This document shows positions 5,023 through 44,608 of a stretch of 44,799 bases of DNA, piece by piece (within the stretch, counting starts at the first letter, position 1; each line of letters opens with the position of its first letter). The notes under the pieces are model-generated. The model had not been told where the DNA came from, did not search any database, and was given only the letters and a program-made list of their open reading frames with translations. A program made the translations under genes and the position numbers. The DNA comes from a virus, in the IMG/VR virus record IMGVR_UViG_3300017613_000536, positions 1-44,799 of that record; one strand, given 5' to 3'.

Positions 5023-8000
5023 TTACTTCCGCCACCCGATCGGCCTCTTGGTGAGCTTCTCTTTTCCGATGGCCTCCCTGGCCAGGTCGATGATCGCCCA
5101 CCAGCAAGCGTCCAGGGCCTTCTTCTTCTCCTCCGGGGTAGCCGTCTTGTTCGCGAAGATCTCTCGGGCCGTGTTCCGCTGGATGTCTATGAGGTCCTTG
5201 TATTTCTCGAGCTCCCGGAGGCGGCCACTCTTGGCCATACCGGAGATCTCGTTCACCAAGCCTCCAGCCCCGGCCACCCTGGCAAGGGGTGCCACATCCG
5301 CGATCCCCTCCGTGATCTTGGTGGATTTGTGCTTCTGCATCTCCGCGGAGAGCTCGTCGTAGAACCTGCCCACGCTCCGGGAGCTCGCGGAGGGGAACCG
5401 GGTATGGAAACCCTTCCAACCGGGGATCACGTCATGGATGTCCTGGGCCGGCATATCCGGGATGTCTCCCACGTTGAACTTCTCCAGGGCCCTGTCCAGG
5501 GAGGCCACCACCAGGCGGCCAGCGCCAGCGAAGGTTGTGTACAGCAGGTTCTCGAGCTTTCCAGGGCTCGCAAGGTGCTTCAGGCCCGGTACCTTGTTCA
5601 TCGCCTCGGCCAGGAGTCGGATAGACCTGGACGTGTACGGCCCGTACTGCAGGTACGGATCCGCTCCCAGTTTATCCCTGGGCACGGTCGGCCGATCAAA
5701 GAACAGGCTTTGTTCCGTCTTCCATTCGATCGGTGCGATCGCTACGTTGGGCAGTTGGAAGGGGGACGCCCCTTCCCAGAGTGCCTTTCCAAGCTCCTTG
5801 ACCGTGGCCTTGTCGTGCTCCACGATCCAGTCCCCGATGATCTCCGGGATGGATCCGAAGATGAGGCCCATCTCGAAGGGCTTGGGTATCGACCAGATAT
5901 TCTTCAGCGAGCCGTCATCGTTGTGGGTTACAAAATTCCAGAACAGGATTCGTCTCCAGGGCGCGATTTCCTGGTAGAACTCATCGTCCTTTTGCGCGTA
6001 CCAGATAAGAAGGCTGGGTAGCGTAATGCCGAAGAATCCAAGAGCCGTGGTACGGGCGGGGTGGTCCCGGAACTGCCGCCGCATTTTCTCCAGCCCCTGG
6101 ATCTTCGGGTTCCAAAACGCGGAGATCATTGCGTAGCCCTTGGTCAGCTGCCCGAACTGCTTGAAGTCGAGCGTCATGTCCCTGGCCTCGATACCCGCGT
6201 CCATGAGGGCACCCCTGTCTGGCGTACCCTCCTTCTTGCCCCAGAGCACGCCTCCGTGGGCGGCCCTGGCCATGGCACCCACACGGGTGCCCTCCTCCAG
6301 GATCTCGGAGAGCATCTGGACACTCTCGAGCGGGTGCACCACGCGGTGCTTGATGCGCTTCACCCGGTTGGCCAGGATCTTGGACAGGTCGGTCTGGATG
6401 TAGTTCCGGTCCATCGATACCAGGGCGCTCGTACCGGCGCCACTTGCGTTGAACTGCTGGTAGAGTTCGGTCTTGCCCAGGATGTGGAAGATGCCTCGGC
6501 CCAGATCCCAGAAAGGCTTGTACCCGTAGTTGGTAAACAGGAACGCAGTGATCTGATCGCGTACCGGGTTACGGAGTGCAAACTCCGGGGAGTAGATCGT
6601 AGCTCCTGCGCGTAGCCACTTGGCCGGGTGCGCGAAGAGCCTCCACGCAGCGTTCACGCTCTCCGCGTCCAGGCCCATGATGGCGCCGTGTACCTCCGGA
6701 GCCATCCAGTAGATCGTGGGTTCTCCATTCTCGTAAAAAATCGCCTCATTTTCCCTGGTGGCGTAGTTCGGCCGGAACGCGGTCAGGACCTCCTGGATGA
6801 GGAACACATCTTCCGGGGCCAGGCCGGCCTCCTCCACCATGTTCTCCCACTCCACGAGGCCACCCTCACCGGCCTCCATCTCCTTGAAGATCTTGTTCAC
6901 CACCTTGTTGTGCTCGGTCATCATGTCCAGGACCTCGAGGATCCTCGCGGCCACATCGCTGGGGGAGTCCTTCAGCTGCTTCTGTATGCTCTTCAGGGCC
7001 TCCTCGAGCTTCATGGACTGGGGTTTCATCGGGGTGTCCACCTTATGGATGAGGTCCCCCATGTTTGGCAATTCCGCGATCTTGGCCATCGCCTTGCCGA
7101 CCTCGTTACGACTGGCCAGGTTGATGATCGTGAACGTGTTTGCTACCATCGTCTCGGTAGGGGAATACACCTCTCTGGCCTCGCCGCCGACCTTTTTGAG
7201 AGGGCTGAAAATATCCCCGAATTTCCTATTGCTCAGGCCGCCTTGGTGGGCGCCGGAGTCCATGACTCTATACAACGGTACATAGAACAGATTCTTTTCC
7301 TGTATCTTCTCTGCGAGCTCCTGGGATATGCGGCCACTGTCTACCAGAAACTGCAGAAGATCTGCGTTGTACTTGTGCAGCTGTCCCGCCACCTGTTCAA
7401 GCTCGGGCTCCAGTTGGTCTACAACCTGCTGGAACTCCTCCCGTGACATGATATTTTCGTAACTCTCGAGCAATCGATCGTCGTTTACAACCCGCTTCGC
7501 GACCAGGTACTGGTCGAGCTCCTGCCGGCGGCCCTCGGCCTCGATGCCCTTTAAGATCGGGAACAGGCCCGGCCCTTGGGCCTCGAATCCCTCGTCTGTC
7601 ATGCGGTAGGTGCCCCAGCGCAAGAACTGGATTGCTCGCTTCGGCCAGCCCCTGGTCAGCCACGCTACCTTGTGGGGGTTGTCTGCCGTCTCGAGTTTGT
7701 CCCCCATGCGCTTCTCGACTTCCTTGGAAAACACATCGAGGAACTCGATGTCGTTAATGAACTTGGCCCAGAACTCATTCATACTCATCCGCGGCTTCTT
7801 GCGATCGCCCGATACGATCATAGTCTCGAGCTTCTTCTGCGGAGGCAGCAGCTGATGGTCTACCCACATCTGCCGGATCCGGACCATGGCCTCCTGGAGC
7901 TCCGGGTGATTGAATAGCGCCCCTTCGAACGCCTCGTGGAACTGAGGGGCGTCCTTCACGAGCTCGCTCTGCACGCCGGTCACATACCTCTGGAAAAACT

Positions 8001-11000
8001 GGGCCGCGCCCTCCATGGTGGGGTTCTTGACCCCCTCCGGATCCGCGAGCAGCCCCTGGAGTTCCTTGGCGTACCCTTCCGGGTTGATGTCCAGCAGTTT
8101 GTAGGCACGAGGCGCCACCGTGAGCAGGGTGCCCTCGATGTCCAGAGGTCGCTTCACTCGAGCGAACCCGCTGCGCTCCCACATCTTGCCGGCCACACCG
8201 CCAGATACCCGGCCGAAGAGGATCGGGATCCCAAACGCCTCCATGATCTCGTTGGTGATCTCCTTCCGGGTGGCTCGCGACTCCTTGCCCTCTTCCGGGA
8301 GCATCTCGCTGGGGAGACTTCTCTTGATGGAGCCCCGCCGTGGTGCGAACACGATCTCCTTCTTGCCCTTGATCACGGGCTGTGCCGGCTGGGCCTTCAA
8401 CCCCGCGGTGGGCTCGTCCACCAGCTGGTAGTTAACGGTGGCGCCCTTGCTGGCATCGACGTTGGCCATACACTTCGGGCCGCACGCCCTGCAAACACCA
8501 CCCTCGCCAGGTACGAGTTCTCCCTCACAGCAGATGTTTTCAAACTTGCCGCTCGGCTCGCTCCGGTCCTGCACGTCCTTCTTGTTCTTCCATACGTCCT
8601 CATGGAACGGAGTCTCCAGGATCTGCCCCTGCGTGACGCCGGCCTTCTTCATCTCTGAGATCAGGAACTGCTCGTTGATCATCTTCACGTCAGCGATGTT
8701 GTCGGCGTTGGTGATGATTCGTATAGAGGTGTTGAGTCCCGCGGATCGTGCCGCGTCGAACTCAGCCAACCGGATCATCACCTCGTTCTTGTGAAACCAC
8801 CCGGAGTTGGAGATGTGGAGTTCAAACTGATCCGCGTATGGGGCCAGAGCCTTGTACTGGGCGTCCGTTATTGGAGCATACGCCCCAGAGATAAGGATTG
8901 TCTTCGGCTTGACCTTGAGGTCCTTGGCCAGCTTGAGCCACTCGAGAACGGTACCGTTGGCTATGGCGTGCGAGTCGCACCCCTTCTGCCCACACCGGAT
9001 AATCATGCTCTCGTTGAACCGCTTTAGGTTTGCACTGTTCTTCGCGGTCAGCCACTTGTGCAGTCTCTCCACGTTGATGAACTCGAGGTCCCGGAGTTCC
9101 ATGGCGAGATGGTTTCCAAAGAGGTGATTGAACTGCCGGTTCACCCAGCAGATCCCGCCGTAACAAGCCTCGATGCGAGTCTCCATCGGCAATACCCCAG
9201 TGGCCACCCGCTCCACGGAGGTGTGGGCTCTCTGGCACCCCCTGGTCAGGTGCAGGACCCAGAGGTCTTTCAGTTTCCCGTCAGTATGGAGCTCAAACAT
9301 ATTGCTGGAGGTCTTTATCTCCGGAGCTCTTTCGTAGAGCACGCCGTAGTCTTCCACCCGCTCCTTGCCGGTCTGCTCCTTCCTGGCCTGAGAGAGGGTC
9401 TTTATGATCCGCTTGACTGGGTTGTCTACCCTGGCCAACCTGCCCACCGGCACCGACACCTCGTAGATTCTTGTCTCCTCGTCCGTGTTCACCCGCTTGC
9501 GTACCGTAGCCTCCCTCTTGACCAGCTGCAAATTTTTTCCTTGACTCCAGGGACCGTTCTCCCTTAGTCTTGACTTGAACGCGGCAAAACGAGAGGAATC
9601 CCTCGAACCGCGATCACGGCCCTTGGGTGGGATACTCGCCCTCGGGCCTTCGCTTTTGTCCTGCCACACATCCCCCCGCTCGATCGCCTGGAATATCTCC
9701 TTCGCATTCGCGGGGAACAGGTTCGGCGCGGCCTTCCGGACGAACTGCCGGAAGAAGTTGTAGATCTTCCGGAAGAGCGAGTTCGCCTCTCCCCTGGGAT
9801 TCCAGTTGGCGTAGGCGTCTGCAGCCATCTCCTCGTTGCCGTACTTCTTCAGGATGGTGCGTATCTCAGCCGGCGTGAGTACCATACGCATGGCGGCATG
9901 GAATATCTCGTGGTCCAGGGTATCGTCCCGCTCGTACTTGGACAGCTCTATCATCCCCTCGCCGGCAGAGAGCCGTTGGAAGGCCCCGGCAATCCTCATC
10001 GCTCCGGCCCGTACCTGGTCGGCATTCTTTGCGCCCCGTTCCCTGGCGATCGACTCGAGCACCTCCTCGTCAGGCACGATCTCCAGCTGCTTCGATACGG
10101 TGAGCTTCATGCCGTTGGGCATGGTGACCCGGAACTTGCCAGCGCCGGTCTGCTCTACCGTGCCCCAGGGCATGATCCGCTTCAGGTCCTCCAGGAGAAC
10201 GTCAGGGCGATCCGATATGCTGATCCACTTGGTAGGCTGGAACATGGGCTGGCCCTTGCCCAGGACGGCGGCCTTCATGTCGGGCGTGATGTCCAGGGAG
10301 TGGGTGGTAAACCTTTCTCCAAACTCACCCTTCCCAACCTTCGCGCCCCACTTCTTAACGTACTTGTTCACGGAGCGTACAAGCTGGTCGTCGTAGAACC
10401 GCTTCATGCCCTCGCCGCCGACTTTGAGGTCGAGGCCCTCAAGAGTACCGTACTCTCCCGGTGCCGCCATCAATTTATCAGCTATTTCTTTTCCAACAAC
10501 CTCATCCAGCATTTTACCGTTGAGGGTTTTTTCCGAAGCATCCACCACCTTGCCTTCTTTATCTACAAACATGCTGGTTGTGTTTCTTGGACCACCAAGT
10601 TGTCCAGAATCCCTGAGCATTATGGTGATGCCCCGGTCGGCCTGGTCTTTACGTTGCCCCCAAACAATTTTTTCCACCTGCTTACTCAAATCATACCGTT
10701 CTGCTTGCTGCGCCCCGGTGGTCCACGCGATACGGTCGTACCCGTTCTCGGCTGCCTCCCTGATCATGCGCTTCATGGCGAGCATCGGCCACGTCTTCTT
10801 GAAGGGGGCGTCGGGGACGGTGCCGTGCTTACCTTCGGCAGCATCTATTATTTTCTCGTATGCCTCTCTCACCTCGGAAGGGAACGGTTCTTTTTTGTAT
10901 CGATAATAATGGTCCCCAATTACATTCATAACCCGAGAATCAGTAGCCTGTTCCCACTCGATTGCAGACAAGCCCAGCTTGTCCCATACGGGACGGGCGA

Positions 11001-13557
11001 CAGTCTCAAAGTTGTCCTTGGCGGCATCCAGCAGCTTTTTGCTGGTTTCCTCGTCTGGCTTATACCCCCCCCTCTTCCCGGCCTGATGCCAGTCGCTTTG
11101 TATCTCCTCGAGGAAGAGAACCTTCTTGCCGTCTGCGTCGGTTCGGTCGTTGGCTCGGATGTGGGCCAGGACGTTCGGCTCGTCCCAGTGACCGCCCGTG
11201 AAGGTGCCCTCTGTTGGAGGGGCAGGATATTTCAACCCTAGCTCAAGCCAAGCCTCTTGGGCCGCCTGCTGCTTGTCCATTGAGTCTGTGAGAACACCAC
11301 CCTCTCCCTCCTTGACCACCCCCCATGCTCCGTCGTCAAGCCGCGTAAACATGTACCCAGGCGGCAACTCTGTCTGTAGCGGTTGATGCGGCATCCTCAA
11401 GAGTATCTCCCGGTAGTTCTCGCCGCCGGGGAGGTTGAGGTCGCTGCGGTTGAACTTGGTGGCAATGTCCTCGTCGGTAAGGATTTCCCCCAAAAAGAGA
11501 ACCCTGGCCCCCTCCCTCTCGAGTTCTAGGCCCTCGTCTGAGTCATAAATCCATCGAGGGGGCTCGGTGGGGTCGCCAAACTTATAACCCACCGCACCAT
11601 TGGGTATTTCTGTCTCAGGTATTCCATGCCGCTCCAGTTGCTCCTCATCGGAGGGAACCTTGCCGGGGTCATGGCCTCTTGTAGTCTCCTCGAGCTCCAG
11701 CTGGTTCCCCCGGACGTACTCCATCACCTCCTGCTTGCTTACCTTCCGGTCGCCCTGCTCCGCGAGCCATTCCTTGATGCCCAGGCTCTCAACCTCCTCG
11801 GCTTTGACCTCACCCTTCTTCACCATCGAGTCGATCTGCTGGGAGGCTTGCTTTGCAAACATCTTGCCGGGGAGTTTCTTCTCGGCTACTTCCGAAAACT
11901 GGGAGTACATACCCGGTACGGGCTGGGCCATCTTCTTGCCGGGCTTCTTCATTCCTGAAGAATCAAGATCCGGCTCTCTTCGCATAAAACCATCTTGCCA
12001 CTCAAAGCCATGCCTTGAATACCATGCAACAATATCCATGGGAGCAGACTCTTCTCCTCCCCCCGGCTCTACTTCAACTGCCAACCCATGCTTATCCGCA
12101 ATCTCCGTCAACCGCCGAAGAGCCCGTCCTCCAATGCCCTTTTCTCGCATCCCCGTTTCTACTGTAATTGTGTGTAATTCGAGAGCATCCTTGTCGGCGT
12201 TCATTCCAACATCGAGGGTGTCCATTCCTTCTGGCAAGCCCACCTCTTCGCTGAACTCTTCTGATGCAGCCTTCAGTCGCTCCTCTAACGGTACGGGCTG
12301 GGCCATCTTCTTGCCCTTCTCGGGTTCCCCCTTGGGGGTCGTTGTAGCCGGCGGCAGGGTCTTGTCCTTATCGCCCAGGTCGAGGGGCACGGTACCCGGC
12401 TCCGTAATACCAAGCTCCTGGCGTAGCTTCTCGTCCTTGTGGGCCACCTTCTTATCGTCCTTGGCCTTCTTCTCCTTCTCCAGGTCGAGCTGCTTCTTCA
12501 CGGCCCGTTCCCGGTACGCCTGTACTCCGGAACCCATACCGCCCATGAGTGCGGCACCACCGGCGGCTACGGGCGCCACCTCGAGCGCGGCCTTCACCTT
12601 GCCCTGATGCGGCATACCTGCAGACTTGGCGGCCTCGTCCTGGGCGGCCGCGGTGGCCATCTCGGAGAGCGTCTCCACGGGGATGCTTTTGGCCATGTTC
12701 GCAAGGTGCTTCCTGAGGGGCGTCAGAGCCCCTTCCTTGAGAGGTTTGCTCAGTCCAAGGATCTTTCCAAGGGCCAAGTCGCTAACGGCCTCAAAACCAC
12801 CTTCTGCGAGCCCTGAGAGGATTGCGGGGGTACGGGCCTTCTCCCTCGATATCCCCAGCTTCTCGGCCTCCTCCATGAAGGAGTCGTACTCGGCTATGCC
12901 AAACAGGAACCCGGCAGACCCGGCATACCCCATCACCGCGCCCAGGGCCGTACCGATTGGAGAGCCCAGCGAGCCCAACCCCGCGCCGACCGCGGCGCCC
13001 GGAAGACCACCAGCCACGGAGGCCGGTACCATACGGAAGGATCCGCGGAGAGTTTTGAAGGCCTCCTCGTTCTCGGGCCGGAGCCATTCCTCCACCGCCC
13101 CGGTCTTGCCCAGCCATTTGTCGGTATCGATCCCCAGCTTGTCGTTGATACCCATCACCCTGCCGGCACGCAGGAACATCTCGGGGGTATCCACGCCGGC
13201 GCCCAGGGCGGCACCCCTGGCAGCTTCCCTGCCGCCCCCGATGAAGTCAGAGACGGCGTCCTTGCCGATATCCAGCAAGGACCTGGCCGGCATCGGCTGG
13301 TCGAGGGTTGTGCCCTCCCCTGGCAGGGGGCCTTCCCAGGATCCGCTCGCAGGATCCTCCCAGGATCCGGACGCACCAGGACGGGAGGGGGTGGTGAGGA
13401 ACTGCATTGTGGGGTCTGGGTCTTTAGGTTCCTCGGGCGCCTCCAGGAATCCCATCGTGGGGTCTGGGTTCTGGGGATCCGATGTCAGGAAGTCCATCGT
13501 GGGGTCAGACGCAGGAGTATCCTGGCCCATCAGGAACTCCATAGTAGGGTCTTTCAC
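5023..13557 (-). CDS. Giant polyvalent internal virion/ejection protein (2844 aa)
   Basis: Residues 1-57 hold four copies of DPTM(E/D/G/Q)FL. A Gly/Ala-rich segment (about 178-225) could insert in membranes. A small GNAT-like module lies near 450-525 (REKGIGGRALRRL), and polyvalent-protein domains follow (about 550-1105), including GGHWDEPNVLAHIRANDR and IAWTTGAQQAERYDLSK. A DHEIFHAAM metallopeptidase site (His1216, Glu1217, His1220) with NEEMAADAYANW downstream comes next. A Cys-rich barrel-like region spans about 1430-1700. A long helical region with the LPD38-like tail (about 2260-2790) completes it. Such proteins are packaged in the capsid, injected with the DNA and bring several enzymes into the host. 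The start is GTG at 13557, directly after the upstream TAA, with AGGAGGAGGG before it. It is the last gene of the late operon. Confidence 0.9.
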   Translation of the reverse strand: MKDPTMEFLMGQDTPASDPTMDFLTSDPQNPDPTMGFLEAPEEPKDPDPTMQFLTTPSRPGASGSWEDPASGSWEGPLPGEGTTLDQPMPARSLLDIGKDAVSDFIGGGREAARGAALGAGVDTPEMFLRAGRVMGINDKLGIDTDKWLGKTGAVEEWLRPENEEAFKTLRGSFRMVPASVAGGLPGAAVGAGLGSLGSPIGTALGAVMGYAGSAGFLFGIAEYDSFMEEAEKLGISREKARTPAILSGLAEGGFEAVSDLALGKILGLSKPLKEGALTPLRKHLANMAKSIPVETLSEMATAAAQDEAAKSAGMPHQGKVKAALEVAPVAAGGAALMGGMGSGVQAYRERAVKKQLDLEKEKKAKDDKKVAHKDEKLRQELGITEPGTVPLDLGDKDKTLPPATTTPKGEPEKGKKMAQPVPLEERLKAASEEFSEEVGLPEGMDTLDVGMNADKDALELHTITVETGMREKGIGGRALRRLTEIADKHGLAVEVEPGGGEESAPMDIVAWYSRHGFEWQDGFMRREPDLDSSGMKKPGKKMAQPVPGMYSQFSEVAEKKLPGKMFAKQASQQIDSMVKKGEVKAEEVESLGIKEWLAEQGDRKVSKQEVMEYVRGNQLELEETTRGHDPGKVPSDEEQLERHGIPETEIPNGAVGYKFGDPTEPPRWIYDSDEGLELEREGARVLFLGEILTDEDIATKFNRSDLNLPGGENYREILLRMPHQPLQTELPPGYMFTRLDDGAWGVVKEGEGGVLTDSMDKQQAAQEAWLELGLKYPAPPTEGTFTGGHWDEPNVLAHIRANDRTDADGKKVLFLEEIQSDWHQAGKRGGYKPDEETSKKLLDAAKDNFETVARPVWDKLGLSAIEWEQATDSRVMNVIGDHYYRYKKEPFPSEVREAYEKIIDAAEGKHGTVPDAPFKKTWPMLAMKRMIREAAENGYDRIAWTTGAQQAERYDLSKQVEKIVWGQRKDQADRGITIMLRDSGQLGGPRNTTSMFVDKEGKVVDASEKTLNGKMLDEVVGKEIADKLMAAPGEYGTLEGLDLKVGGEGMKRFYDDQLVRSVNKYVKKWGAKVGKGEFGERFTTHSLDITPDMKAAVLGKGQPMFQPTKWISISDRPDVLLEDLKRIMPWGTVEQTGAGKFRVTMPNGMKLTVSKQLEIVPDEEVLESIARERGAKNADQVRAGAMRIAGAFQRLSAGEGMIELSKYERDDTLDHEIFHAAMRMVLTPAEIRTILKKYGNEEMAADAYANWNPRGEANSLFRKIYNFFRQFVRKAAPNLFPANAKEIFQAIERGDVWQDKSEGPRASIPPKGRDRGSRDSSRFAAFKSRLRENGPWSQGKNLQLVKREATVRKRVNTDEETRIYEVSVPVGRLARVDNPVKRIIKTLSQARKEQTGKERVEDYGVLYERAPEIKTSSNMFELHTDGKLKDLWVLHLTRGCQRAHTSVERVATGVLPMETRIEACYGGICWVNRQFNHLFGNHLAMELRDLEFINVERLHKWLTAKNSANLKRFNESMIIRCGQKGCDSHAIANGTVLEWLKLAKDLKVKPKTILISGAYAPITDAQYKALAPYADQFELHISNSGWFHKNEVMIRLAEFDAARSAGLNTSIRIITNADNIADVKMINEQFLISEMKKAGVTQGQILETPFHEDVWKNKKDVQDRSEPSGKFENICCEGELVPGEGGVCRACGPKCMANVDASKGATVNYQLVDEPTAGLKAQPAQPVIKGKKEIVFAPRRGSIKRSLPSEMLPEEGKESRATRKEITNEIMEAFGIPILFGRVSGGVAGKMWERSGFARVKRPLDIEGTLLTVAPRAYKLLDINPEGYAKELQGLLADPEGVKNPTMEGAAQFFQRYVTGVQSELVKDAPQFHEAFEGALFNHPELQEAMVRIRQMWVDHQLLPPQKKLETMIVSGDRKKPRMSMNEFWAKFINDIEFLDVFSKEVEKRMGDKLETADNPHKVAWLTRGWPKRAIQFLRWGTYRMTDEGFEAQGPGLFPILKGIEAEGRRQELDQYLVAKRVVNDDRLLESYENIMSREEFQQVVDQLEPELEQVAGQLHKYNADLLQFLVDSGRISQELAEKIQEKNLFYVPLYRVMDSGAHQGGLSNRKFGDIFSPLKKVGGEAREVYSPTETMVANTFTIINLASRNEVGKAMAKIAELPNMGDLIHKVDTPMKPQSMKLEEALKSIQKQLKDSPSDVAARILEVLDMMTEHNKVVNKIFKEMEAGEGGLVEWENMVEEAGLAPEDVFLIQEVLTAFRPNYATRENEAIFYENGEPTIYWMAPEVHGAIMGLDAESVNAAWRLFAHPAKWLRAGATIYSPEFALRNPVRDQITAFLFTNYGYKPFWDLGRGIFHILGKTELYQQFNASGAGTSALVSMDRNYIQTDLSKILANRVKRIKHRVVHPLESVQMLSEILEEGTRVGAMARAAHGGVLWGKKEGTPDRGALMDAGIEARDMTLDFKQFGQLTKGYAMISAFWNPKIQGLEKMRRQFRDHPARTTALGFFGITLPSLLIWYAQKDDEFYQEIAPWRRILFWNFVTHNDDGSLKNIWSIPKPFEMGLIFGSIPEIIGDWIVEHDKATVKELGKALWEGASPFQLPNVAIAPIEWKTEQSLFFDRPTVPRDKLGADPYLQYGPYTSRSIRLLAEAMNKVPGLKHLASPGKLENLLYTTFAGAGRLVVASLDRALEKFNVGDIPDMPAQDIHDVIPGWKGFHTRFPSASSRSVGRFYDELSAEMQKHKSTKITEGIADVAPLARVAGAGGLVNEISGMAKSGRLRELEKYKDLIDIQRNTAREIFANKTATPEEKKKALDACWWAIIDLAREAIGKEKLTKRPIGWRK

Positions 13558-32238: not shown

Positions 32239-32583
32239 CTATATGGCCAGTTCTATAATCACAGTTGTTGCTTCCGTGAGGTCTGCTGCATCCATTGCTG
32301 GCCACATCAGGCACCCCCGCTCACCGAAGTACCGGACGCAGTCCAGTACCTCCGCGGTGGCCAGGAAGTCCATGATCTTAGCCGCGGTCTGAGCGCTGGT
32401 CTTCGCGTTCCTGATGATCACCGCATCAGACGCGCTTGTGGTGTGTATCTGGATGCTTTTGACCATGAGCCCCTGGTCGTTGCCCTCGACCAGCTGTGGC
32501 AAATCTGTAGGCGCGTTCCAGTCCGTGGCGCCGTCAAGCTCTACCGATACAAACCGGCCGCTCATCGTGGTTGTGTTGCCCAT
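32239..32583 (-). CDS. Small hypothetical protein between portal and scaffold
   Basis: This 114-residue product starts MGNTTTMSGRFVSVELDGATD. It looks like a compact beta-rich domain (MVKSIQIHTTSASDAVIIRNAK, CVRYFGERGCLMWPAMDAADLT, TTVIIELAI). The start overlaps the portal stop by one base (TAATG). There are no signal or membrane segments. Its place suggests a minor capsid or connector-related protein. I do not recognise the family. Confidence 0.7.
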   Translation of the reverse strand: MGNTTTMSGRFVSVELDGATDWNAPTDLPQLVEGNDQGLMVKSIQIHTTSASDAVIIRNAKTSAQTAAKIMDFLATAEVLDCVRYFGERGCLMWPAMDAADLTEATTVIIELAI

Positions 32584-34673
32584 TACTTGGTACCTCCTGG
32601 TCCTGCTGTGGGTTTGGGTGCAGCCGCCTCTGCCGCCGCTGCTTTCTCTGCATTCTGTAGTTCGATACCTTCACGCAGGGCCTGTACCTGTGCTTGCATA
32701 CCTTGCAGTTGCTGGCCATGCTCCGCGGCTTCTGCCTTCATCAGGTCCGCTATGCCCTTGATCAGGGTTTCAAACTCCTTGCGGTCCTGGTCCCTGGTTT
32801 CCAGGGCGAGCTTGTCCTTCTGTACCTGGGCCTCGAGCTCGAGCTTGAGCATCTCCGGGTCTGGAGGAGGGGGCTCAGGCGGGGGATCGTCCGGACCTGG
32901 TTCCTTGATCCCAGGAGGGATCATTTTCTCCAGTCGTTTCTGAAGTTCCGCGGCTCCAGGAACGTCGAGATTCTTCACAACCAAATCTATGGCAGCGACC
33001 CCCGCCTGAGGTACCGTTTTGACTATCTCCAGGAGGGCTTCTGCAGCCTCCTGTCGTTGAGTGCTATACGATGGGCCAATATCGACCCGCACGTCATATT
33101 TCCCTACTGTGAGGTCGTTCAGGTAGTCCGATACATCCGGGTTGTACACCGTGGGGGGCTGGTACTGCTTGCTCTGCTGCATCTCCTGGATCTTGGAGGG
33201 GTGTATCATCTCCGGGTCCATACCGACCGGCTGGTTGATCGGCACCTCGAGCTCGCTATCGTCCTCCCCGCGGATACGAATCACGTCCTCCTTGTCGTAT
33301 ACCTTGGGGATCAGGTCGATGAGGATCTTGCCGTTCCGGGTAAGGGCCGCTTCGAACATATTGGTGAACCCGAACGCCCCGGTATCACCCTCCCGCTGCC
33401 TTGCGAGGATGGCCTTCCCGCTCTTCTCTTGGCCCTCGTCACCCAGGGAGGCCTGGTACAGGCCCATACTCGACATGATGTCGTGCTCCATGCGCTGTAG
33501 CTCGGCACTGATGGCCGTACTCATCATGGGCGGCGCCTCGCGCTTCGGGCCGATTGGTGCCATGGGGTCTGCGGTGTACACCAGGTAGGTGTAGTTCTTC
33601 TCGCTCTGTGCGTCCCACATCTCCTGCGAGCTCTCGAGCATCTTGCCCGTGACCAGGAAGGGAGCAGTAGGTGCCAGCGCGATCTGCTCGGTGACGCTCG
33701 ATGACCAGTAGTTGTACATTTGTTGCGGTTCCCTGGCCATACGGACCATACCGCGGTTGTGCCGGCGCTCTCCGATCCATGTCTCCTTGCCCAAGGCCAC
33801 CACGATCGGGATGTGAACGCCTGGCCACTCGTGAGGGCCGTCCAGGAGCTCGCTGCCACACAGCAGACAGCTGAAGAGCGTCTCCTTCTCTTGCAATCCC
33901 TGCTCGGGGTCTGCCTTCTTGGTGGCCCAATACCAGTACTCTGCCACCCGGACCTTCTTCTCGGTCCTCCAGGCCTGGTCCTCGTCTGTAGAGGACGAAT
34001 CCCAGTCCTGAATGGCGGCGTTCGGGTACCTGTCCCGGAACGCGGCCTCGGGTAATAGCTCGGTGACGAACATATACCGGGCATCGCCCAGGTCCACGTT
34101 CCGGCTCTCCGGATCCCAGTACACCACCAGGGGGTTAGGCATCCGCTCTATGCGGATCTCCTTCTCACCGTCTCTGTCTGTAATCACCCGTATGCGCCAT
34201 GCACCACGACCCCCGGAGATGACCCCATCGAATGCACTCCCATACGCAGCGCTTGCGTTGGAGTTGTACTCAACGTGCCGTACTATGCCCCCGAAGATCT
34301 CAGCTACCTTCGGGTCGGCCTTCGAATCGACAGGTATCACCTTTACCGCTGGTGAGCTCTGCCGGAAGTCTCCACTGATCTGGTCTACCTTCTCCACGAT
34401 CTTGTTAATGGTCAGGCACGGCCGTGGGGGCTGGGCGCCCATTCTCTTGGCCTTCACGTCTACAGGCCACTGATCCCCGTTCAGGAACGTCAAGTCATCA
34501 CGGTACGCCTTGCGCTGGTCCTGGTCGGCATCTGCAGCATATGCGAACCGCTCTCTGGCCTTGCGTACAAAGTCGGCCTCCTGGGTCTTCGACATACGCT
34601 TGCCGGCCTTCTTGCGGCGCCGCTCCTCGAGCTTGCTTGCCCCTGGGTCCAACATCTCTACGACTGGTTCCAT
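32583..34673 (-). CDS. Portal protein, P22 gp1-like
   Basis: This 696-residue product matches P22-type portal proteins: RKAYRDDLTFLNGDQWP, PRPCLTINKIVEKVDQISGDFRQSSPAVKV, ESRNVDLGDARYMFVTELLP and the long helical barrel with QKDKLALETRDQDRKEF near the C-terminus. A Pro-rich stretch (EPGPDDPPPEPPPPDPEM, near residue 590) precedes the C-terminal helical barrel, which is long as in P22. The portal is the 12-subunit ring through which DNA enters and leaves. ATG at 34673, 3 bp after the terminase stop. Confidence 0.93.
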   Translation of the reverse strand: MEPVVEMLDPGASKLEERRRKKAGKRMSKTQEADFVRKARERFAYAADADQDQRKAYRDDLTFLNGDQWPVDVKAKRMGAQPPRPCLTINKIVEKVDQISGDFRQSSPAVKVIPVDSKADPKVAEIFGGIVRHVEYNSNASAAYGSAFDGVISGGRGAWRIRVITDRDGEKEIRIERMPNPLVVYWDPESRNVDLGDARYMFVTELLPEAAFRDRYPNAAIQDWDSSSTDEDQAWRTEKKVRVAEYWYWATKKADPEQGLQEKETLFSCLLCGSELLDGPHEWPGVHIPIVVALGKETWIGERRHNRGMVRMAREPQQMYNYWSSSVTEQIALAPTAPFLVTGKMLESSQEMWDAQSEKNYTYLVYTADPMAPIGPKREAPPMMSTAISAELQRMEHDIMSSMGLYQASLGDEGQEKSGKAILARQREGDTGAFGFTNMFEAALTRNGKILIDLIPKVYDKEDVIRIRGEDDSELEVPINQPVGMDPEMIHPSKIQEMQQSKQYQPPTVYNPDVSDYLNDLTVGKYDVRVDIGPSYSTQRQEAAEALLEIVKTVPQAGVAAIDLVVKNLDVPGAAELQKRLEKMIPPGIKEPGPDDPPPEPPPPDPEMLKLELEAQVQKDKLALETRDQDRKEFETLIKGIADLMKAEAAEHGQQLQGMQAQVQALREGIELQNAEKAAAAEAAAPKPTAGPGGTK

Positions 34674-42232: not shown

Positions 42233-42717
42233 TCGCCCCCCCCATTTGGTGGTCTTAAGTCCCCCTGTGGCACCCAGTATGCTGGTCGTTTGTGACCCCC
42301 TTTTTCATTCCAGTACTCTTGCCTTCCTGCCTCCTTTCCATACACCCAGCCTACAATCCTGATCGACGGGAACTCGTCCCTGTCCACGATCACCAGATAA
42401 AATTGCTTGTCTGGTTTTTCCTTGATGTCTGAATCGTGCATAACCAAACAGCCGTTTTTGTGGTGGGTGGTGCGAACCTCGTGGCCCCCCACATCTCCCT
42501 CCGTTTCCAGCTGCCCAGGAGTGCCGCTCCACCAGACACCGTGTGCCTTGGCAAATGCAGCCTCTCCTATTGCGCCCATCACCTCATATCCCCACTCCTC
42601 TGGCCCAAAGGCGAGATTCCATCGATGTTTGGACCCCTTGTACATCTTGTGAATCTTACGCTTTATTCCCATAATGCAAGCCATCTCAATTTCCGACCAC
42701 GTCATTTTAATGTTCAC
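42229..42717 (-). CDS. Putative PD-(D/E)XK-like phage protein
   Basis: This 162-residue product, starting at GTG 42717 (or ATG 42705), shows GAIGEAAFAKAHGV, then EGDVGGHEVRTTHHKNGCLVMHDSD and FYLVIVDRDEFPSIRIVGWVYGKEA. The order of Glu, Asp and Glu-x-Arg is that of small PD-(D/E)XK-like nucleases, though Arg replaces the usual Lys. It could be a nuclease or an inactive relative. The stop overlaps the initiator start (ATGA). It has a poly-G site before the start. Confidence 0.65.
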   Translation of the reverse strand: MNIKMTWSEIEMACIMGIKRKIHKMYKGSKHRWNLAFGPEEWGYEVMGAIGEAAFAKAHGVWWSGTPGQLETEGDVGGHEVRTTHHKNGCLVMHDSDIKEKPDKQFYLVIVDRDEFPSIRIVGWVYGKEAGRQEYWNEKGGHKRPAYWVPQGDLRPPNGGGE

Positions 42718-42910
42718 GCCCCCCCCCTTCGATCTGCGATACCCAATGACCCCCTGTCACTTGCGAATTGTCCTCAACCCAATCGCTAACGGCAGCCATA
42801 CAGAGGTCGCAGTATGCCCACCCACACCAATAGACAACATCCCAATAATCGAAACAGTTGCCGCACCCGTGGCATTTGACCTTTCCGTGGCTTGCTACCT
42901 TGAATGTCAT
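42707..42910 (-). CDS. Small Cys-rich zinc protein
   Basis: This 67-residue product starts MTFKVASHGKVKCHGCGNCF. It has CxxCxxC and, after VVYWCGWAYC, a further CxxC (CDLC), giving two likely metal sites. The ATG at 42910 is preceded by the GTGACAGGGGGTCAC motif. A second copy of the motif lies inside its own coding sequence (42746-42760). It overlaps the next gene by 11 bp. A nucleic-acid-binding or regulatory role is a guess from size and cysteines. Confidence 0.72.
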   Translation of the reverse strand: MTFKVASHGKVKCHGCGNCFDYWDVVYWCGWAYCDLCMAAVSDWVEDNSQVTGGHWVSQIEGGGREH

Positions 42911-43158: not shown

Positions 43159-43733
43159 TTGCCTCCCCCTTTCAGGTCGTATTCCCATCTGATCTTGTCT
43201 GCCGTTGTCTGCATTTTGTTGCGTTTTCGGGTGTTCCACCCTGTAGTTGACACAGAACTTCTTTGCGTTGGTTTCCACCCTGCTGCCGCATAGATTGTCC
43301 CGGTGTGTACCTCAGTGTCTTGGTAGGAGATGAGTTTCGTGAGTTGCGGCCATCTCTTCACCAACAACAACCGCATTACCTTGAGCATTCTGGATGCTGT
43401 GTTCTGTGGGGCATCTGGTGCGATTGCTAACCGGCGTAACTCTATATAGTCCTTGCCGTTCAACATCCTTGCTATCGGGTCGGTCCAGATTGCCGTGGCG
43501 TACCATCTGTTTTCATATTCCGCACCGAAACAGATAGCATGACCCGATCTAGAGATGTTCGATTTTGAAACAAGGGGGAGTCTGGAGTGCCACAATTCAT
43601 TCAATTCAATGGCAAGATCTATGTTGATCTTATGGATGGCAAGATGGAGCGGAGAGATGGGAATCGAACCCTCACCTTCCGTTGGGAACAACGGATGTAC
43701 TACCCTTATACTATCTCCGCTCAAAATCAACAT
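43155..43733 (-). CDS. Mom-like GNAT-type DNA modification protein
   Basis: This 192-residue product belongs by motif to the Mom/GNAT-like phage group: LNELWHSRLP, ICFGAEYENRWYATAIW, ELRRLAIAPDAPQNTASRML (98-117) and LISYQDTEVHTGTIYAAAGW (134-153). Mu Mom converts adenine to a carbamoylmethylated form that blocks restriction enzymes. A similar job here is inferred. ATG at 43733 follows GTGAGGGGAGGTC. Codons 5-30 lie inside a tRNA-Gly-like sequence, so either the protein's start is further down (no other early ATG exists) or the overlap is real. It is transcribed right after the radical-SAM gene. Confidence 0.78.
   Translation of the reverse strand: MLILSGDSIRVVHPLFPTEGEGSIPISPLHLAIHKINIDLAIELNELWHSRLPLVSKSNISRSGHAICFGAEYENRWYATAIWTDPIARMLNGKDYIELRRLAIAPDAPQNTASRMLKVMRLLLVKRWPQLTKLISYQDTEVHTGTIYAAAGWKPTQRSSVSTTGWNTRKRNKMQTTADKIRWEYDLKGGGK
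43645..43720 (-). tRNA. tRNA-Gly-like element with encoded CCA, possibly degenerate
   Basis: Reading from 43720 to 43645 on the minus strand: a perfect 7-bp acceptor stem (GCGGAGA with TCTCCGC), D-arm GTATAAGGGTAGTAC, an anticodon arm TCCGT/ACGGA around an 8-base loop TGTTCCCA, and T-arm GGTTCGATTCC. It ends with discriminator T and CCA. It lines up with tRNA-Gly but has two extra bases, one in the anticodon loop and one in the T-stem 3' strand. These make a working tRNA doubtful. The element lies inside the start of the Mom-like reading frame, on the same strand. Confidence 0.55.
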
Positions 43734-43752
43734 GACCTCCCCTCACATGTCC

Positions 43753-43799: not shown

Positions 43800-43814
43800 G
43801 TGACCCCCTGTCAC
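43800..43814. promoter_or_regulatory. GTGAC-AGGGG-GTCAC motif, intergenic copy
   Basis: On the minus strand GTGACAGGGGGTCAC is a 5-bp inverted repeat with AGGGG in the loop. This copy starts at the stop of the radical-SAM gene. Other copies or close variants are at 44610-44624 (before the radical-SAM start), 43732-43746 (before the Mom-like start), 42912-42926 (before the small Cys-rich gene) and 42746-42760. At three of them the G-run is the ribosome-binding site. Confidence 0.6.
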
Positions 43815-44608
43815 TACGCCGCCTTTGACCTGTAGGCCGCTGGTCTACACCATTTTTTTGCTAATCTTTTCCACTCCCTCGGGTGATCTGCCGGTTGGTA
43901 GAGTTGAGCAAACGGCAGGAACCCCATCCCGTACACCATCCCGAGCCTTGCCTCGGCATCTTCTATGCTCTCCCCGTTGTACCCGATAAGGACAAAACAC
44001 CGTTTTTTGTTGATAGGCATATGGGCGGTCATATCTGCTACTCGCTGGAGGGGCCTCTCACACCCCTCGGAATCACAGGCAAACCACATCTCATCGAGTC
44101 GAATAGACTCAACCAATTCCAAGTGCCAATCCTTGAGTAGTCGGGCATCTAACCCACCGGCAAACTTGATGCGCTTCGGCTGTCTTTTCAGCATCTCGAA
44201 CACCGCCTCAATGTGCTTGCGGGAACAGGCCAGGAGGTTGTTATCCTGTACGATCCAACCGTCCTGAATAGGGATCTCCCTGATAGGCCCCTCTCTCTTC
44301 GGGACGAAGCAGAACGGGCACTTACGGGGGCAACCCCTGGACGTGATGGTCACGCCCTCCTTGAGATACCGGCCAGGGACGAAGCTGCCACCCTGGTTGT
44401 CGAATGCTGGCCCCCCAATCCGCACGTCCTTGTAGAAGTCTGACCATTGCCGAAATAGCCGTTTGCCCTCTTCGATGTCCCATGTGAAGGTGACAGAGAT
44501 GTGGACAGGCTGGTCTACAGGCTGGAACAGGGGCGGGTTCCCCACAAAGGCCAGTTCATCGGTAGGGGTCCAAGTGGTTTTTCTTGGGAAAACCCTAATC
44601 ATCTGCAT
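43814..44608 (-). CDS. Radical-SAM enzyme upstream of the Mom-like gene
   Basis: This 264-residue product has the radical-SAM motif GCPRKCPFCFVPKREG with Cys93, Cys97 and Cys100 (CxxxCxxC), which should hold a 4Fe-4S cluster binding S-adenosylmethionine. Later FAGGLDARLLKDWHLEL and KRCFVLIGYNGESIEDAEARL fit the rest of the TIM barrel. It ends in a basic tail with Cys (KKWCRPAAYRSKAA). No accessory domain is seen. The substrate is unknown. Being directly before the Mom-like gene, it may supply or alter the base modification. ATG at 44608 follows GTGAGGGGAGGTCAC. Confidence 0.88.
   Translation of the reverse strand: MQMIRVFPRKTTWTPTDELAFVGNPPLFQPVDQPVHISVTFTWDIEEGKRLFRQWSDFYKDVRIGGPAFDNQGGSFVPGRYLKEGVTITSRGCPRKCPFCFVPKREGPIREIPIQDGWIVQDNNLLACSRKHIEAVFEMLKRQPKRIKFAGGLDARLLKDWHLELVESIRLDEMWFACDSEGCERPLQRVADMTAHMPINKKRCFVLIGYNGESIEDAEARLGMVYGMGFLPFAQLYQPADHPREWKRLAKKWCRPAAYRSKAA

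Follow-up and report, generated by a model that had tools for sequence, protein, structure and literature searches.

Analysis of a 44,799-nucleotide (nt) tailed-phage genome, the IMG/VR virus record IMGVR_UViG_3300017613_000536 (the whole stretch is hereafter called the window), revealed a 76-nt glycine-tRNA-like RNA element at 43645-43720 on the minus strand, within the 5' coding end of a gene of the Mom family of DNA-modifying enzymes. About 200 distinct copies of the element were found overall, and their comparison indicates several features: (i) the element folds into the L shape of a tRNA and is selected as RNA, (ii) it accompanies Mom genes of many subfamilies irrespective of its place or coding status, and (iii) it resembles a glycine acceptor rather than a decoder. 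On balance, we favour the interpretation that the element is a non-decoding glycine tRNA dedicated to Mom: the host glycyl-tRNA synthetase (GlyRS) would charge it, and Mom would use it as the glycyl donor; the fold, its selection, the glycine features and the Mom link come from sequence evidence, and the donor step is what we infer. The broader proposal of tRNA-dependent DNA modification, in which glycyl-tRNA supplies the glycine to Mom and many phages encode a non-decoding glycine tRNA of their own in or beside mom, has in our judgement a slightly better than even chance of being correct.

The original prediction, made from the letters of the window, described a tRNA-Gly-shaped sequence with a perfect acceptor stem, a D arm, a T arm and an encoded CCA. 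This description was confirmed by ARAGORN, which reports the element as its single gene call in the window ('tRNA-???' with an irregular anticodon), by RF00005, the sole Rfam match in 44.8 kb (43649-43720, minus strand; 35.1 bits vs the gathering cutoff of 29, below which several relatives score), and by formation of all 22 pairs of the family structure, a number reached by none of 20,000 synonymous recodings (best 21). The folding energy is -27.7 kcal/mol (z = -2.54), and the family covariance model R1 gives 90.6 bits for the window copy, which is one of the 41 training rows of R1. The two single-base insertions relative to tRNA-Gly that had been noticed are real: they correspond to an irregular anticodon loop (8 nt, or 6 nt if one extra pair closes) and to a bulged A in the T stem. 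The window element thus lacks the continuous 5-base-pair T stem (bulge at alignment column 63) and the 7-nt anticodon loop of a tRNA; loops of 6 or 8 nt also occur in most 5' copies, and a 7-nt loop in one subgroup. The acceptor 5' strand is joined to the D arm by TA, the D arm to the anticodon arm by a single A, and the anticodon arm to the T arm by AGGT.

The open reading frame (ORF) that contains the element, 43733-43155 on the minus strand, opens with ATG TTG behind GGGGAGGTC (sequence upstream of the ATG, AGGGGAGGTC), and its translated part includes ...HPLFPTEGEGSIPISPLHL...; the ATG lies 13 nt ahead of the element, and the frame crosses the element without a stop, as had been claimed. 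The protein matches Pfam PF25680 (Mom) over residues 89-178 with 44.8 bits vs the curated cutoff of 27.1. Its AlphaFold model (predicted local distance difference test, pLDDT, 81) has the GNAT fold of Mu Mom, which is the best match in PDB (8bv8; E 8.9e-10, template modelling score 0.65). Residues 1-21 are predicted to be disordered (pLDDT <50), order begins at residue 22, and residues 22-31 are modelled confidently; the predicted disorder of residues 1-21 suggests that this part of the protein is dispensable.

To describe conservation of the RNA, homologues were collected by protein similarity, and a segment at a constant offset from the WHSRLP motif was taken from each, ignoring structure. 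Homologues beginning with HPLFQ..GGSIPTSPLQ, which the original prediction had mentioned, were found in numbers. The counts of acceptor and T pairs are bimodal, with 11-12 of 12 pairs in 80 segments and at most 9 in 34, and the element-bearing set was defined by at least 11 of 12. In the 49 non-redundant representatives of this set, acceptor and T pairing is 99.8% vs 74.1 +/- 1.7% after synonymous recoding (maximum 79.4% in 500 sets). A6 is an alignment of 41 diverse copies; of its 902 pair cells, 95.9% are standard, double changes occur at 17 of 22 pairs, and covariation is seen in all four stems, the controls reaching 74.9% pairing for shuffles and 42-49% for slid structures; the covariation score is 0.586 vs 0.178 for shuffled and at most 0.127 for slid alignments. 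Most A6 rows were chosen partly by acceptor, D and T pairing; the anticodon arm was not used and is therefore the cleanest part, with 89.8% of its cells paired and double changes at all six pairs. An unaided RNAalifold consensus has the identical fold and the identical T-stem bulge, and the bulge is also present in copies at the 3' end of mom and in the 5' untranslated region. Homologues show compensating changes at acceptor pairs 4-69 and 5-68. Acceptor changes also alter the protein in step: GGA...CCG (Gly...Pro), GCA...GCG (Ala...Ala) and GAT...TCG (Asp...Ser). Kinship among copies is only partly controlled in these conservation statistics. A chance origin of the fold was ruled out by the pairing in homologues, the covariation and the synonymous recoding.

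Selection appears to extend to tertiary structure. The elbow of a standard tRNA brings G18, in the D loop, into contact with U55, in the T loop. Among protein-anchored copies with an intact D stem, G18 accompanies U55 in 32 and a base other than G18 accompanies one other than U55 in 11, and no copy departs from this rule (Fisher P = 1.7e-10, relatedness ignored); the alternative at position 55 in the summary pattern is G55 (32/0/0/11). Position 55 is a first codon base, so that its change replaces Ser by Ala, and position 18 is a third codon base. All 30 D-armless copies also have G55, a count that is not independent, as most came from a search pattern with G55 fixed. Compensating changes with the frame kept in the homologue alignments bear out the claim that tRNA mimicry is a conserved part of Mom genes, with one restriction: it holds for the element-bearing genes and is not universal, several Mom lineages without the element keeping the PLF...P.SP peptide. 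Three outcomes had been named as counting against mimicry (no fold in homologues, a poor covariance score, protein homology only past residue 30), and none of them was found for the element-bearing genes.

The link to Mom was assessed with three DNA patterns (A, B and C) that describe the T arm and acceptor end, hold no Mom-protein information and were run over 2.9 million viral contigs; the matches are not all independent stretches. For the three patterns pooled, 211 of the 232 matches listed are Mom-adjacent. Pattern A found 99 stretches, 89 of them beside a Mom domain (within 400 nt, same strand): 77 elements are at the 5' end in an open frame, two at the 5' end with a stop inside the element, three at the 5' end in another frame, and seven at the 3' end. 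For pattern B, with at least 120 matches, 109 of the 120 listed are Mom-adjacent (including 56 in-frame and five other elements at the 3' end), and for pattern C all 13 are. Matches without Mom are mostly at contig ends or beside truncated Moms, and a Pfam Mom match was obtained for all ten widely diverged element carriers examined. R1 scores of the elements are mostly 60-93 bits vs at most 45 bits for matches in one bacterial genome, and the D-armless relatives have no Rfam match even at E<=1.

Elements without a nearby Mom gene were also observed. Four loci, L320 (4250-4343), L336, L356 and L357, form one odd family with a T arm and acceptor end and no normal 5' half. At L360 (111-186) and L353 (8056-8138), 3'-type elements have no Mom body within 400 nt; in L360, a frame with a Mom-like N-terminus runs directly into the element, as if the gene were mostly deleted and the RNA kept.

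Copies are thus of several kinds: in frame at the 5' end of mom, in another reading frame, in the 5' untranslated region, at the 3' end of the gene, or stand-alone after it. The cultured Psychrobacter phage vB_PmaS_Y8A (OQ059336.1) has two stand-alone D-armless tandem copies 8 and 80 nt past the mom stop. A very divergent copy in a Gemmataceae metagenome-assembled genome (L127, 2871-2946; acceptor GCGCCAG/CTGGCGC, loop TCGACCAG, same T-stem bulge) is probably non-coding, the Mom start codon coming after the element. The L127 and Y8A copies have R1 scores in the range of ordinary tRNAs and were assigned by bulge and place. The Y8A paper reports no tRNA genes (PMC10434257); both Y8A copies are unannotated, and a gene with a ParB/sulfiredoxin domain precedes mom. 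Two tandem Mom genes, the first with the element, occur in L302/L204 (contig 3300032331_001653), L284 and L300, where one RNA might serve both. The free placement around mom argues for an RNA that acts in trans and against both a cis leader and an insertion scar.

In 40 of the 49 representatives, an in-frame ATG precedes the element by no more than 30 nt, and mostly by 4-13 nt; the only ATG is internal in two, and an ATG or GTG between the element and the enzyme core is present in only 19. By these start-codon counts, an over-annotated start, with a genuine tRNA gene directly preceding mom, was rejected for the 5' in-frame class. The same spacing, at which folding and initiation should compete, favours regulation in cis, where a tRNA fold in the mom mRNA would hide the start, or GlyRS binding or RNase P cutting would keep toxic Mom late or scarce. 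There is a precedent in Mu, where a translation-inhibiting stem that includes the mom start codon is opened by Com (PMC6483171). Nevertheless, we consider this explanation unlikely, since many copies at the 3' end of or after mom, including the tandem pair of Y8A, are unable to hide the start, the NCC anticodons and glycine acceptor bases are left unexplained, and Pfam and PHROG searches of the window gave no Com family match, although a small Cys-rich ORF two genes after mom resembles a Com-type zinc finger. The regulatory leader or mimic controlling Mom synthesis that the original prediction had proposed is likewise weakened by the 3'-end, 5' untranslated, other-frame and free copies. A cis-only leader needs neither a glycine anticodon nor a 3' or doubled placement, so a trans-acting glycyl RNA fits better.

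Bacterial GlyRS reads C35, C36, G1-C72, C2-G71 and U73, and this identity set is complete in the window copy. In A6, G1-C72, C2-G71, the anticodon CC and U73 are found in 41, 39, 41 and 41 of 41 rows, respectively; among distinct copies, U73 is present in 193/199 and CCA in 180/199, values that are partly fixed by the search patterns. The anticodon is TCC in all 49 protein-anchored representatives, despite changes of the codon TTC to ATC (three) or CTC (one); genes without the element have TTT (ten) or TTC (five) at the same codon. Copies at the 3' end have U, A or G at position 34, and all keep C35 and C36. These observations bear on a further alternative, in which Mom binds the tRNA-like fold as an uncharged cofactor, specificity factor or inhibitor (an RNA antitoxin) and no glycine is transferred. 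It would explain the tight Mom link at any position and the strong conservation of the fold, elbow included, but gives no reason why the glycine anticodon persists or why the U73-CCA end is mostly retained, and we rate it as somewhat less probable still than regulation in cis.

The element is probably built so as not to serve translation: its anticodon loop has 5, 6, 7 or 8 nt in different copies, its T stem is bulged, and U55 and the D arm are each lost in some copies, all of which set it apart from a decoding tRNA. Thus, although the tRNA score and the Gly anticodon would suit a decoding phage tRNA-Gly, or a replacement for host tRNA-Gly cut by anticodon nucleases that merely hitch-hikes with mom, this is very improbable given the bulge, the loop sizes, the D-armless copies, A34 and the Mom link in more than 200 stretches. 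The least probable explanation is an ancient tRNA-Gly captured into the ORF, of which the peptide alone matters now: it accords with the fold-less genes, in which PLF...P.SP and WHSRLP have the same spacing, and with the confidently modelled residues 22-31, but synonymous recoding destroys the pairing kept by homologues, the elbow covaries, and non-coding and 3' copies exist. The insertion scar at tRNA-Gly suggested in the original prediction is likewise unsupported, as all copies belong to a single RNA family marked by a common T-stem bulge and by selection in stems, elbow and anticodon; an insertion or attachment-site scar was rejected because the RNA is conserved whole, its own bulge included.

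The glycyl-donor pathway can be outlined as follows: (i) the element would be cut from the mom transcript by RNase P at 43721/43720 with subsequent 3' trimming (RNase P/Z processing is plausible), or would already be free beside mom, (ii) host GlyRS would charge it with glycine through the identity bases given above, (iii) the T-stem bulge, the odd anticodon loop and, in some copies, the loss of the D arm would keep it off EF-Tu and the ribosome, and (iv) Mom, with its GNAT fold, would move glycine from the RNA to N6 of adenine in DNA. The T stem is the EF-Tu contact region, and the bulge falls there. In the 5'-fused form, only 4-13 nt separate the start codon from the acceptor stem, so that each transcript would serve as either mom mRNA or tRNA.

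The product of Mu Mom is N6-carbamoylmethyl-adenine, i.e. alpha-N-(purin-6-yl)glycinamide. From its structure, the modification adds C2H3NO, exactly one glycyl residue, and the product is an isomer of N6-glycyl-adenine. In the latter, the free amine could attack C6 via a five-membered ring (Smiles type), N6 being released as the primary amide to yield N6-carbamoylmethyl-adenine. In relatives of the window protein, the usual GNAT coenzyme A (CoA) loop (R/QxxGxG/A) is replaced by PKNTAS or similar, which fits weakly with a non-CoA donor. The modified base is named in PMC10969986, and the donor of Mom has been stated to be acetyl-CoA (PMC11340752) or predicted to be glycyl-CoA (PMC7824862). No tRNA link of Mom was found in the full-text literature searched, whose coverage does not include the main Mom papers, and novelty is judged on that scope.

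Several observations weigh against a glycyl-tRNA donor. Mu Mom reportedly binds acetyl-CoA (work of Karambelkar et al., 2020). Neither Mu nor ten other named Mom phages have a copy of this class near mom; Mom can therefore act without the element, and Mu-like phages would have to use host tRNA-Gly. On a tree of 79 Moms related to that of the window, the element state changes 7-13 times by gain or loss (L127 is labelled 'none' on this tree, though its copy lies farther upstream). About 10% of copies have no encoded CCA and some have A73, and copies with aberrant anticodon loops or without the D arm might charge poorly. Finally, C35-C36 of the 5' copies lie in TTC-C codons, so conservation at the protein level could contribute; protein-only conservation is unlikely, because the F-to-I/L cases and the 3' copies keep CC.

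Genes without the element were further examined for a copy elsewhere. In 28 viral and genome records with an element-less Mom, the only convincing copies, in two contigs, lie next to a second Mom gene; R1 matches in one bacterial genome among these records are in the score range of ordinary tRNAs. Whole-record R1 matches in two of the named Mom phages, HGTV-1 and Darwin, reach at most 43.6 bits and are probably ordinary phage tRNAs, and BLASTN with the consensus element against named phages and plasmids returned ordinary tRNA-Gly and short chance matches. In the element-less Mom genes, PLF...P.SP...L is retained with its spacing to WHSRLP unchanged, and the peptide may be a by-product partly adopted by the protein, loss of the RNA being tolerated.

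Comparison with known systems shows both likenesses and differences. Mu has a Mom-family GNAT protein like that of the window (PF25680), and its mom expression is under RNA-level control; unlike the window, the Mu record has no tRNA-like element at mom or elsewhere, and the Com target is a short hairpin. In staphylococci, a non-translational tRNA-Gly with features that weaken EF-Tu binding is used by the FemXAB peptidoglycan transferases. The likeness, a dedicated glycine tRNA donating to a GNAT-fold transferase, would be a functional analogy only, and the FemXAB tRNA is stand-alone and serves cell-wall synthesis, whereas the element, with its bulged T stem, shares its sequence with a gene for a DNA-modifying enzyme. 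Plant RNA virus tRNA-like structures and mRNA tRNA mimics such as the thrS leader act in cis in replication or autoregulation; they share tRNA mimicry within a longer RNA, whereas the element shifts around mom and is also found free. With ordinary phage tRNA genes (RF00005), it shares the acceptor, D, anticodon and T arms, the Gly anticodon and CCA, but differs in its bulged T stem, irregular anticodon loop and ORF overlap.

The source of the carbamoylmethyl group added by the GNAT-fold Mom is unsettled, and the element points to glycyl-tRNA as the donor. If this is true, the donor would be settled, the adaptor RNA of translation would be linked to the protection of DNA against restriction, and, to our knowledge, this would be the first aminoacyl-tRNA-dependent modification of DNA. 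In addition, one stretch of a DNA strand encodes a folded tRNA together with a protein start, an arrangement largely missed by standard tRNA finders and Rfam.

Table 1. Coordinates of the element, its parts and the mom gene in the window, and of the tandem copies in phage Y8A
Feature	Position	Strand	Basis and remarks
Mom-family gene, 192 amino acids	43155..43733	-	ATG at 43733; PF25680 and PHROG 1384 Mom-like; AlphaFold match to Mu Mom 8bv8
Shine-Dalgarno-like AGGGGAGG	43736..43743	-	sequence; just 5' of ATG
Glycine-tRNA-like RNA element, 76 nt	43645..43720	-	ARAGORN, Rfam RF00005, covariance model R1; spans mom codons 5-30
Acceptor stem 5' strand GCGGAGA	43714..43720	-	7/7 pairs with 43649-43655; Gly identity pairs G1-C72, C2-G71
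D arm GTAT-AAGGGTA-GTAC	43697..43711	-	G18/G19 equivalents in loop; 4/4 pairs covary
Anticodon arm TCCGTTGTTCCCAACGGA	43678..43695	-	6/6 pairs covary; arm unused in sequence selection
Glycine anticodon C35-C36	43685..43686	-	invariant: 41/41 A6 rows, 18/18 A7 rows
T arm GAGGG-TTCGATT-CCC(A)TC	43656..43673	-	conserved bulged base A at 43658, 3' strand of T stem
Acceptor 3' strand TCTCCGC, discriminator U73 and encoded CCA	43645..43655	-	alignment A6
Y8A copies	L391 1949-2016, 2021-2089		acceptors GCGTGTA/TACACGC and GCGTATA/TATACGC (compensating changes between them)

Elsewhere in the window, all on the minus strand, are a frame of 2844 amino acids (5023-13557) and a P22-like portal gene (32583-34673). 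Just upstream of mom lies a radical-SAM-like gene (43814-44608; PHROG 9298, motif CPRKCPFC), relatives of which were not found in other viral contigs beyond one identical contig. Two genes after mom, a small Cys-rich ORF without a family match (42707-42910, CHGCGNC...CGWAYCDLC) resembles a Com-type zinc finger.
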